Positions 28,181 to 42,427 of a stretch of 64,000 bases of DNA are shown here, in pieces. Where the stretch lies: assembly GCF_009389715.1 (NCBI RefSeq), contig NC_052399.1, positions 14,635,646-14,699,645 on the forward strand, in the 5' to 3' direction. Numbering within the stretch: the stretch's first letter is position 1; each line of letters opens with the position of its first letter. Source of the DNA: Phoenix dactylifera (Eukaryota; Streptophyta; Magnoliopsida; Arecales; Arecaceae). Below the pieces are notes generated by a model, which was not told the DNA's origin, did no database searches, and saw only the letters and a list, made by a program, of their open reading frames with translations. The translations under genes and the position numbers were made by a program.

Positions 28181-28264
28181 CCTAGCTTTTCCTATTGATC
28201 TACGATTGTTCATTTACAAGAACGTGCAGTATGCATATATGGGCTTATTGGACAACAAGGATTA

Positions 28265-30288
28265 CTAGATACATGGTTTTCCAACAAAACAACTGAGTGT
28301 GCCAGAATCTGCAGTCAATGATGGCACCGTTGATCCCTTGGCAACCTTAAACTTTTGTGATGGAGAATAACCTGGAGCAGAACTCCCTGATCCTGATTGA
28401 ACAAAGTATGCACCATTTAAGAAATAATCTTTTGAAGATCTCCAATTCCATTTCTTCGATCCACCTTTCACCCGCCGAGTGACCTAAAATAGGCGTGCAC
28501 ATACAAACATTTATCAATTCAAATTGAACGATATGTTGCATCAGTACTTTTCTAATCAATATGGGGACATGATGATGCAAATCTTTATTGATGAAATACT
28601 GTTACAGTTTCAATATATATATATATATATATATATATATATATATATATATATATATATATATATATTAGCTAGTATGTAGGTATACAATCATTAGCCA
28701 TCTAGATGGGCGCTTGTTTCAGAATACATGCAAGCTGCTATGCATTTAATCGGCTATCAACGAATCATGCAAATTAAAAAATTGCAGATTAGCGAGCATA
28801 CCTTGTAATTGCTTCAAACTTATCCTTTCCTTGATTGAATAATTTTGTTAAACACAAGGCATTAGTAGCTGTTGTTGACTTTGGCTATAAGATCTTTTAT
28901 TGCATCGTTGCTAAATATTGTCTTTATCCTATCTGAGATGATTCAAATTTTTGCCTCAGTTCACCAATGACCTTCCATATGGCGAAGATTCTTTTTTTTT
29001 CCCCTTTTAGCAAATTAACTTATATGATGAGGAGCGATGCACAGAGATCTAGCGAGAGACAGAGAAAAAGATCTTACTTCCTTGAGCTTGGGATTATCCG
29101 GAGCACGGTAGTAGTTTCCCTCGCTAAGGATGGTGGGATTGGAACTCCCTCCTACAGCATATATCCCCCATCCGTCGTATCTGTTGTTCGCTATATGAGC
29201 ATATCCTGTCCTGACCCTACTCATGCATACGTCCACCAGGAGAGTCATTAATTAACAAGTAAAGAGGCATTTTCCTTAAGAAAAAATGCAAATAGTCATG
29301 TAATCGTAGCTAATAGATTTAACGTTGGCACGTCGAGCTGAAGTACCATGGAGACTACAGCATGTCTCCCTCAATTACCTCGGCATCCTCTGGACCAAGT
29401 GCGGTCCAAAACGGTTGAAGACTACCGTCACCTTCATCACCTTGTCCGCATCAAACCCGTCCTGATGCCCAAGCAACAACACCTGCACCAGTTTGTAAAG
29501 ATTATTCCGATATACATTAATCCACCTGCAAACTTCTAAACAATTTCTCTTATAGCTTTTCTGAACATCAGTTTCGATACTTTATTATGATCTGAGAAGA
29601 AGTTGTTGGAGATGGTGACTGCAGTAGAACCATGAACTACATCGATGAGTCCATCCGTGGAATGAGACAGCTTGCAGTGGTCGATCCACACGTGCGACGA
29701 AGCAAATATGGTGATGGCATCCCCATCCTGGCCTCCCCGGTGCTCCACATGCGTCGGGGACCTACGGACCATGCCCGGCTTCCCACGAGTGCAGTGATGG
29801 ATGCGTAGCCCGTGGATTATGACATGGTTCGCTTCATGTATCCTGATGCATGGCCCCTTCGCGATCGCCACCTTGGCCCCCCTCCCGTCGATAGTCTTGA
29901 AGCTGTTCATGAAGAGCTCGTTCTCAAGTTTAATGACCATGTCCTTCTTAAAGACTATCCACAGAGGCTTCGTCAGGATGGCACCGTAGCGGAGGGTGCC
30001 CGGCTTCGGGTTCTCGGCATCGTCGGAGGGGTCGGTGACCGTATAGATTGCTCCATTTTTTCCTCCCAACGCACCCTTGCCGAAGCCCACAGCGCAGTCG
30101 GCCAAGCGTTTACGGTTGGATGCCCATCCCGGATTGGAACGCCAACAAGCATCGATCTGGTTCTTGTTCTTCTTGGAGAGATGGGGTGGCGAGTGGCCGG
30201 TGGTGGTGGTGTGGCTTGCCGCGGAGAAAAGAGGGACGAGAGCCGAGCAAAAGAATAGATATGAAGCCAAGGTGTAAAGAAGGGCCAT
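28265..30288 (-). CDS. PLL: Pectate lyase, unit A (4 exons)
   Basis: Exons are 30288-29581, 29482-29379, 29216-29078 and 28483-28265, all with GT..AG introns, giving 389 residues, close to the usual 400 for plant PL1 enzymes. A signal peptide (about 1-24, [20 protein letters not shown]) sends it to the cell wall. Visible family motifs are NQIDACWR (43-50), LADCAVGFG (62-70), DGDAI (188-192) and [18 protein letters not shown] (201-218) with Ca-binding Asp. Also present are K250 in [10 protein letters not shown]267-RMPRVR with the catalytic Arg pattern R268/R273, and a C-terminal [16 protein letters not shown]. These residues predict an active Ca-dependent lyase of de-esterified homogalacturonan. 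Intron 3 holds an AT microsatellite. The coding sequence is identical to unit B. The start is the ATG at 30288, 66 bases below a TATA box. Confidence 0.9.
28612..28668. repeat. (AT)n microsatellite in pectate-lyase intron 3, unit A
   Basis: 57 bases of AT. The equivalent in unit B is 59 bases (44640-44698). The old copy has only about 15 (18121-18135). Confidence 0.95.
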
Positions 30289-30353
30289 GTCGCGAGGGTG
30301 GAATAGCACGCCCGAGGATGGGGAATGGAGAGGATCCGAACTTACGGGGAGGA

Positions 30354-39407: not shown

Positions 39408-39836
39408 ATGAAAATGACTGCCAGGGTTTTAGTCATCATGGCATTAGCCATGGCCTTGGCCACTTCCCTTGCCTCACCAATTGCTCCCAGTGAAGTGGAG
39501 GAGCACTTAACCAATGAAGAGGTCTCTCCGTCGTTGAGGGGAGTGAGTCGTTTGCTAGCCCAATCCAATCCAAAAGCCTCCATGACATGCGATAAATACC
39601 CGAGGATTTGCTACGCCAGAGGAAGCCCGGGCCGGGAGTGCTGCAAGAAGAAATGCGTGAACGTGATGAAAGACAACCAGAACTGCGGATGGTGCGGGAG
39701 GAGGTGCGGATATGGGCAGACGTGCTGCAGTGGCCAATGCGTCAATGTGCTGTATGACCTCAGGAACTGCGGGGCGTGCAAGAACAAGTGCAAGCAAGGT
39801 GGCTTCTGCAACTACGGGATGTGCAACTATGCTTAG
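39408..39836 (+). CDS. STIG1-like: STIG1-like protein b, unit A
   Basis: Single exon of 142 residues from the first ATG (39408); a second ATG two codons on (39414) could also serve. The signal peptide is MTARVLVIMALAMALATSLA. A short acidic spacer ends in SLRGVSRLLAQ, resembling RGMSRILAR in protein a. The domain has 16 Cys: CDKYPRIC, ECCKKKCVNVM, NCGWCGRRC, TCCSGQCVNVL, NCGACKNKC, FCNYGMCNYA. Its similarity to protein a suggests an older inverted local duplication. It is convergent with the WAK-like gene, whose stop is only about 380 bases away. It is identical to the copy at 55441. Confidence 0.92.
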   Translation: MKMTARVLVIMALAMALATSLASPIAPSEVEEHLTNEEVSPSLRGVSRLLAQSNPKASMTCDKYPRICYARGSPGRECCKKKCVNVMKDNQNCGWCGRRCGYGQTCCSGQCVNVLYDLRNCGACKNKCKQGGFCNYGMCNYA

Positions 39837-40218
39837 TTGATTGCTTGGCTCGGAGTTTCATACATGTCTATGATGTGCACTTTATATATTTCGTATATAT
39901 GTACGTAACTATACAAGGCTTGTATTTGTTAATCACCATGTTTGTTATTTCATGCATGTAACCATATATATATAGCAGCCATGTAGGCTGAATGATGGGA
40001 ATAGATACATATGATAATATTGATATTCAAATAAGAAAGAACACCGTTTCTTTTCGTTTAGCAGAACACCATACGTGTTTATACATCTCTCTTTCCAAAA
40101 TTATCTTCTTGCGTTTCTTTCAAATATCAAAACACGCTTATGGCCAAGCACCACTTAAGTATTATTTATCACGCAAGATATCTAGCTTTAAGGGGAAAAG
40201 AAATCATGAAGTAGCCGA

Positions 40219-42427
40219 TCAAAAGAGCCTATTTTCATTGCTCTGAACCCCACATGTCACGATTTTGTTTTTTCTCATCTTCCTTAGATACCACACAAGA
40301 GCTCCAACACCCACCGCACCAATTGAAAATACGGTAGTTCCTGCAGTAATATCAATGTTATCATGCATGTAGGGTGATTAAAAAAATAAAAATGAATATA
40401 ATGTCTGGGTATATACAAGGAGTCCTTACCGGCTATAACTCCAGCAGATACTTTATGCCTTGAAGAGTCACCATCTGCACGTATGCATATATAGGATTAT
40501 GAACACGGTTGATACAAAGTAGGCAAATCCAGCGTCCATGTCTTCTTTAGTATTTTTTGGCACAAATCTTCTTAATCTATTTTACTGGCTTACTGATAAC
40601 CTAACAACTTATATAGAATAATAATTGAAAATTTTCTTTTTTCCTGTGAAAAGAAAATCATCTTCGAGTGGATTGGGATAAAAATGCGACAAGTTACATG
40701 TATTATGAATAAGCGGATATAGGCTCTTACCAAAAAAGAACAAAAATAGCTATAGGCTAAAATTATCCATAGTCTTTTTAATTTTGGTCAGAAATTTTGA
40801 GGATCTAGAAATTTTAATGCTACATAGAACATTACGATTGAGAATATGACCAACTAAAATTAACCATGACATATCAAATCAACTACATGCTTAAAACAGT
40901 GCCCGAACTTAGTATTACATATGTTGGGAGCAACTTATCAAAGGCAGAACCGCGCGCTAGAGAAACACTGTAAAACTAGCGATCGATTTAACTAGATGCC
41001 AAAGGATCCAATTAAAATTTTCAATTATAGCCGTCCGCTATCATGTCATACATTGGCGAATTTACTCATAAGCCATCAGGTCGGTTTTAATCACAAAGAT
41101 GGATTACATGATGATCATCAGGACATTCTCCATAACCTACTTTTTAATGGTGCAACTGGAGCAATTTTTCTCTTCATGCATACAATTCTTCATTATTTTT
41201 GGGAATTATTTGGTCACTGAAATGATTCTTTATTCTTATTTAACAAATCCGGGTATCGATAAACCATTACTACATGTGAAATGCAACATATATATATATA
41301 TATATATATATATATATATATATATATATATATATAAGGTGAACATTTGCTCGATAGTTTGTGTACATCTCGGGATGTCATAAGATTCTAAAATTGTGAT
41401 AGAAGAGAAAGAAAAAAGGATTGATACCTTCGAAGTACGGCCCAGTTACCACGTCCAAAAGAAGAAGCGCATTTAGCTTTACAGCTTTCTTTCTTCTATA
41501 TTATATTTTCCTTAGATGCTTCAGAGATCACGAATCTGTGCTTTCCCAGTTCTAATATCATTGGAGTTATTAATGTAATCGTTGAGTGATCTATAATTTA
41601 TTTCTTTCTCGTAAAACCCTAAAAATCAACATAATCTAGTAGATGTGTGATTATATGACATAATAATATAATGTACGGATCGGGAACATACTGCGAGCAG
41701 GAGAGAGGGACTAACCGGTACAGTAAGTAGTGACATTCCCTTCATCACAAAGGCAAAGAAAACTCCGCGATTCGGTATCGAACCCACACGTTCCCCTACC
41801 CCTCGCCCTATCGCGGCACTGGAGACACCGAGTGGTGACCGGGATCTCGAAATCCACCCGAATCCCATACTCCGGCACCTGATCATACGGCGGAAAGCTC
41901 GCTCCCACGGTCCTCCAGTACACGCTAGTATACGACGCACAGTGCTTCAGCATCAGCCTCAGCGACTCCGAAGCCTTGGGATAGTAAGAGCAGCAGCTGG
42001 TCCTGGTCTCCACCAGAGCGTTCGGACACACCGGCAAGTTGCGGCACAGATACCCGGCGCTGTCGCAGGCCGAGTCGCAGCGGTCGGGGAACCGGTCGCA
42101 GAAGCTCGGCTTCGGCTGGATGATGACCGAGTCCTCGCTGCAGTTGAAGAAGAGATAGTCGTTCCTGGGGGAGAGAGAGAAGCGAGTGCTGGTGTCGAGG
42201 CTGAAGGGAGTGACCGGGCGGCGGAAAACGGCATTCTCCTCCTCCTCGTCGTCGTCGTCGCCGTAGAAGTTGTTGTTGGAGGGGCAGCTCCACATGGAGG
42301 GGTCGGTGACCAGGAGGTGGGGGTCGGCGTAATCGATGGCGGCGACCGGGTAGTTGCCCGACGGGGTGCGGAGGATGAGGCGGGAGGAGTTGGTGCAGAC
42401 GAGCATTCTGCGGTAGTAGGGGTTGCC
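40219..42427 (-). pseudogene. 5'-truncated WAK-like gene, unit A
   Basis: Exon 3 (40340-40219) and exon 2 (40474-40430) match the intact gene exactly, and exon 1 runs from 41716 up to the duplication joint at 42427. There it loses the start codon, the signal peptide and about the first 49 residues. Beyond the joint the reading frame meets a stop within a few codons. The first usable ATG is the internal Met 56, at 42406. Without signal peptide or native promoter it is unlikely to reach the membrane. Differences from unit B in exon 1 include Asp for Asn in the acidic run and Gly for Glu in a basic patch. Confidence 0.85.
41288..41337. repeat. (TA)n microsatellite in WAK-like intron 1, unit A
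   Basis: About 50 bases of TA. In unit B there are two TA runs in this intron (57321-57358 and 57386-57441). Confidence 0.95.

Follow-up and report, generated by a model that had tools for sequence, protein, structure and literature searches.

The 64,000-base stretch of Phoenix dactylifera DNA analyzed here (NCBI RefSeq assembly GCF_009389715.1, contig NC_052399.1, positions 14,635,646 to 14,699,645; hereafter the window) carries two units of about 16 kilobases (kb) arranged head to tail, termed A and B, which share a 12.7-kb core entirely free of base substitutions lying between edges that differ at about 2.5% of their sites. Comparison of the sequences shows that both copies of the core were one and the same sequence very recently, because they show no substitution even though the core blocks that could be sampled mutate normally. 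As the best reading of this arrangement we propose, tentatively and with a probability of roughly two in five, a young duplication whose ends were later exchanged with other haplotypes by ordinary recombination. The units and their parts, together with an older relict unit that served as outgroup, are as follows (all on the forward strand):

26407-42427: tandem unit A, matched to 42428-58490 by self-BLAST and aligned to it with MAFFT
42428-58490: tandem unit B, abutting A without a spacer (self-BLAST)
28257-40952: core, copy A (five exact blocks, 12,692 bases)
44285-56985: core, copy B (exact-block walk)
26407-28256: left edge of A, differing from B in two steps
42428-44284: left edge of B (MAFFT alignment with A)
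40953-42427: right edge of A
56986-58490: right edge of B (alignment with A)
16591-25446: older relict unit (unit 0), with five blocks homologous to A and a broken pectate lyase gene

A substitution-free core between diverged edges

The two units form a single self-BLAST alignment of 16,075 columns with 99.0% identity and meet directly at 42427/42428, where neither a spacer nor an N intervenes and microhomology, as read by eye, amounts to 0 base pairs (bp); not one of the 64,000 bases of the window is an N. Self-BLAST found no repeats of at least 150 bases at an expectation value (E) of 1e-10 flanking the ends of the duplication; on this ground, and for the absence of microhomology, flanking-repeat recombination is rejected as its origin.

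An independent exact-block walk through the core recovered 12,692 exactly matched bases in five blocks with 0 real substitutions and with interruptions confined to AT, T, C and TC/TA runs, so that the preliminary description of this DNA was right both in seeing no substitution between 28257-40952 and 44285-56985 and in confining the core changes to the lengths of repeat runs. The sole mismatch listed by MAFFT in the core, at 37635, lies where (TC)32(TA)24 faces (TC)30(TA)25, i.e., at a TC/TA border displaced by the lengths of the two repeats. Copy A of the core contains 12 repeat tracts, counting single-letter runs from 8 bases upward and dinucleotide runs from five units upward. Five of them differ in length between the copies, viz., AT (56 vs 58 bases), T (9 vs 8), C (24 vs 30), TC (64 vs 60) and TA (48 vs 50), amounting to differences of 2, 1, 6, 4 and 2 bp. 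Were the core changing at the rate seen in the edges, it would carry about 321 substitutions against the 0 observed, and under one uniform rate a core this clean has a probability of the order of 1e-30; the full alignment of the units thus shows substitutions that are not evenly spread, in keeping with the pattern described earlier. Purifying selection is rejected as the cause of the identity, since most of the core lies outside recognized reading frames and is identical there too. At substitution rates of 7e-9 and 1.3e-8 per site and generation, the lack of core changes sets upper bounds on its age of about 17,000 and 9,000 generations, respectively, whereas a divergence of 2.5% would take about 1.8 and 1.0 million generations.

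Outside the core the units have diverged, as had also been noted: A and B differ at 49/1849 sites (2.65%) in the left edge and at 36/1455 (2.47%) in the right edge, the latter falling to 25/1351 once an AT-repeat stretch (41285-41400) is excluded. The right edge further contains AT-type length differences of 12 and 48 bp and is heterogeneous, with 20/634 differences in noncoding sequence (repeats excluded) against 5/717 in a GUB_WAK reading frame. Transitions make up 53/74 of the edge differences outside 41285-41400 (34/49, 10/12, 5/8 and 4/5), which makes sequencing error an unlikely source of them. In the MAFFT alignment the final left mismatch is at 28256/44284 and the earliest right mismatch at 40953/56986. 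The preliminary description had envisaged sharp changes at both of these boundaries. This holds on the right, where five differences fall within 40953-41028, but the left boundary is stepped, with 44/1194 differences in 26407-27600, 5/655 in 27601-28256 and then none (Fisher P = 1e-4, for a cut at 27600 picked after the data had been seen).

The relict unit provides an outgroup in the left edge and in those core blocks that lie within 28257-31644, and none in the right edge; simple-repeat matches were not counted among its five blocks. In the core blocks it differs from A at 92/1223 sites and from B likewise at 92, with 0 differences between A and B, whereas for the left edge the counts are 118/1161 against A and 110/1161 against B, with 20 between A and B. 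The ratio to unit 0 thus predicts 15.6 differences between A and B in the core blocks against the 0 observed (P = 4e-5), and low mutability of the core is rejected for the sampled blocks (92/1223 against 118/1161 in the edge). The left step persists after scaling by distance to unit 0, the A/B differences per unit 0/A difference being 0.38 (11/29) in 27068-27548, 0.10 (9/89) in 27549-28256 and 0 (0/92) in the core blocks. As unit 0 lies at much the same distance from either copy in the left edge, a raised edge divergence through conversion from unit 0 is unsupported there.

A GUB_WAK gene cut by the duplication

The age of the duplication can be approached through a gene of the GUB_WAK family that is cut at the junction. 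GUB_WAK and Stig1 are both plant families, and the Stig1, pectate lyase and GUB_WAK_bind matches in the window are in keeping with nuclear DNA of a plant. The two versions are:

57777-58715, reverse strand: GUB_WAK gene frame across the right end of B (GUB_WAK_bind, E 1.3e-10; WAK_assoc, E 4.5e-05, below its cut-off), open over 313 codons
41714-42427, reverse strand: 5'-truncated GUB_WAK fragment in A, open over 238 codons

The fragment in A lost its start at the junction and has neither a frameshift nor a stop. It differs from the B version at 5 positions in 717 bp (3 synonymous, 2 nonsynonymous, 0 indels), one of the nonsynonymous differences lying within 5 bp of the junction, and is about 4.5-fold less diverged than the adjoining noncoding sequence (5/717 vs 20/634, repeats excluded; Fisher P = 9e-4). 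Had the edges diverged since an old duplication, free decay of this fragment in A would be expected; its intactness therefore fits allelic edges better. Free decay of A predicts 11.7-21.3 differences and constraint on both versions 5.5-16.2, and a simple Poisson comparison over nine rate and constraint settings puts the allelic reading ahead of free decay by likelihood ratios of 8 to 217. Taken at the sequence level, these figures suggest that the fragment has been under constraint, fitting allelic rather than old paralogous divergence. With the cut gene undecayed in A, the designation of the duplication as "clearly older" in the preliminary description is not borne out.

At the junction an open frame of the left edge of B (42428-42668, reverse strand), resembling a 5' exon by eye, comes to lie directly upstream of the fragment in A; the A counterparts of this frame gave no Pfam match above cut-off. 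On the reverse strand the B-side sequence preceding the fragment carries stops in the frame of the latter, which rules out a simple in-frame fusion.

Accounts of the identical core

According to the reading that we favor, a recent 16-kb head-to-tail duplication, its ends joined without homology, would have placed a second pectate lyase gene and two more STIG1-like genes beside the originals. Too little time would have passed for substitutions to arise between the copies, and only the fast-slipping repeats would have changed. The diverged edges would be alleles and not an old part of the duplication: we infer that crossovers within A's left edge and B's right edge may have swapped the ends for those of other haplotypes, about 2.5% different, with a switch between haplotypes by the assembler as an alternative route to such allelic ends. 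A young duplication predicts a substitution-free stretch wherever the copies never recombined with other haplotypes, and the core presents such a stretch. None of the exchanges would have to go beyond ordinary crossing over, and the event is of an ordinary kind for which no new mechanism is required. The identical interior, the allele-like divergence confined to the ends and the undecayed cut gene are all as in a young segmental duplication that has recombined with single-copy haplotypes.

Several points weigh against this proposal. At least two separate exchanges are required, one per edge, and the step in the left edge demands a third exchange or an uneven divergence between haplotypes. Polarized by unit 0, the left-edge sites comprise 14 derived in A and 6 derived in B (P = 0.12); the two kinds are intermixed up to 27460, and the nine differences in 27549-28256 are all derived in A, which neither a young nor an old duplication predicts and for which there is no good account. 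The argument from constraint on the GUB_WAK fragment rests on five differences, the allelic expectation is itself too high in 4/9 settings (P below 0.05), and the look of constraint could also come from a substitution rate that varies along the DNA or from one more short conversion patch over 41.7-42.4 kb.

The chief rival, which we regard as unlikely though deserving of serious attention, is an older duplication homogenized by unequal exchange. A first unequal crossover between units about 97.5% alike would have given rise to three copies and a second would have taken one away, with the two crossover points leaving a shared 12.7-kb core; on this account, again unlikely, the edges would keep the old divergence. 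Tandem repeats as long as these lend themselves naturally to such exchange, a series of exchanges differing in age would be consistent with the step at 27.6 kb, and the relict third unit attests to an earlier duplication at the locus. Unequal recombination has been inferred in a plant cluster, the banana RGA08 cluster (PMC3017797), and the Sdic array of Drosophila is said to be liable to it (PMC7475035). However, nothing in the truncated GUB_WAK fragment of A points to prolonged free decay, and two non-allelic events would be needed within a very short time. The locus resembles tandem duplicates in concerted evolution, whether by unequal crossing over or by interlocus gene conversion, in having a segment more alike than its flanks with recombination-like boundaries; it is unlike them in showing 0 substitutions over 12.7 kb and in that an older age of the duplication is not established.

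Improbable, in our estimate, is an assembly artifact, in which two haplotypes alike in the middle were placed in series or the reads of a collapsed core were used twice. Two alleles joined at arbitrary points would indeed resemble the present case, with its allele-like edge divergence and its blunt junction within a gene, and adjacent heterotype false duplications, whose copies likewise differ at the allele level, are documented (PMC9516828). Gaps between the copies are given as a primary mark of false duplications (PMC9516828), whereas the present copies are contiguous with no N in the window, and a gap-free join needs reads across it. Moreover, the 5/12 core repeats that differ in length argue against one consensus pasted twice, although errors in the repeat consensus could also make the lengths differ. 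The suggestion that one copy was filled from the other is accordingly not favored.

Less probable still is a single gene-conversion tract of about 12.7 kb that copied one core over the other within an older duplication. The identical core, the sharp right boundary and the tract-like pattern agree with it, as does the presence of a segment of unexpected identity between diverged sequences (0/12,692 against edges of about 2.5%). Yet 12.7 kb is 4 to 10 times the longest tracts given in the consulted portions of two Arabidopsis studies, which reach at most 1.2-3.0 kb: minimal observed meiotic tracts are 1-282 bp for non-crossovers and 1-1229 bp for crossovers (PMC3865688), and the longest non-crossover tract is 1882 bp, possibly extending to 3045 bp (PMC3828143). 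The left boundary is stepped and the GUB_WAK fragment looks constrained, and both speak against such a tract. What stands of the conversion tract put forward earlier is a core sequence common to both copies until recently; conversion as its cause is not shown, given a length far above these Arabidopsis tracts. The slightest chance goes to one exchange that moved the 12.7-kb tract in a single step, ended 9 bp past the probable pectate lyase stop and so kept the pectate lyase and STIG1-like block identical as a unit.

Gene content and implications

The core holds a pectate lyase gene and both STIG1-like genes of the unit, as first described, with the following frames in A:

29539-30354, reverse strand: open frame with the main pectate lyase exon (Pectate_lyase_4, E 4.6e-11; B frame 45569-46384)
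29018-29251, reverse strand: additional pectate lyase exon region (Pectate_lyase_4 profile positions 171-211, E 0.0067, below the curated cut-off)
28265-28483, reverse strand: probable last pectate lyase exon (open frame with no Pfam hit; tentative assignment)
33315-33818, reverse strand: STIG1-like gene 1 (Stig1, E 4.9e-29; B frame 49344-49847)
39285-39833, forward strand: STIG1-like gene 2 (Stig1, E 5.5e-28; B frame 55318-55866)

The match of the main pectate lyase exon (family PF00544) passes the curated cut-off. The probable stop codon (28265-28267) lies 9 bp inside the last difference between A and B, a coincidence that carries little weight because the final exon gave no match to a family and the copies are identical outside genes as well. 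In unit 0 the pectate lyase is without its middle, no block at E 1e-4 matching 28926-30003 of unit A, and a 133-codon open frame (20086-20484, reverse strand) spans the part matching the first exon of the gene. The two STIG1-like genes of each unit are in opposite orientation and 75% alike over 292 bp. Another STIG1-like gene is found at 13301-13942 (Stig1, E 4.4e-25), bringing the Stig1 reading frames in the window to five, including two per unit (the B pair by sequence identity to the A pair).

Elsewhere in the window, two open frames at 21160-22491 resemble a degenerate retroelement by eye, based on what we take to be a retroelement motif, and gave no Pfam match at E 0.01; a local direct repeat occupies 11571-12175 (334 columns at 78%), with no Pfam match in the two reading frames scanned. 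No RNA families were found in the window at the gathering threshold. Among papers judged by title and the beginning of the abstract, none appeared relevant to a tandem locus of STIG1 and pectate lyase genes, in a search not aimed at proving the locus undescribed.

The locus offers a clear test case, in that gene conversion readily comes to mind when diverged edges enclose an identical core, and a young duplication recombined with other haplotypes yields the same picture. The gene that the duplication truncated here provides an internal clock that separates these two readings. Should the duplication be real and young, chromosomes with one copy and with two may both persist in the species, with the pectate lyase and the two STIG1-like genes at doubled dose.

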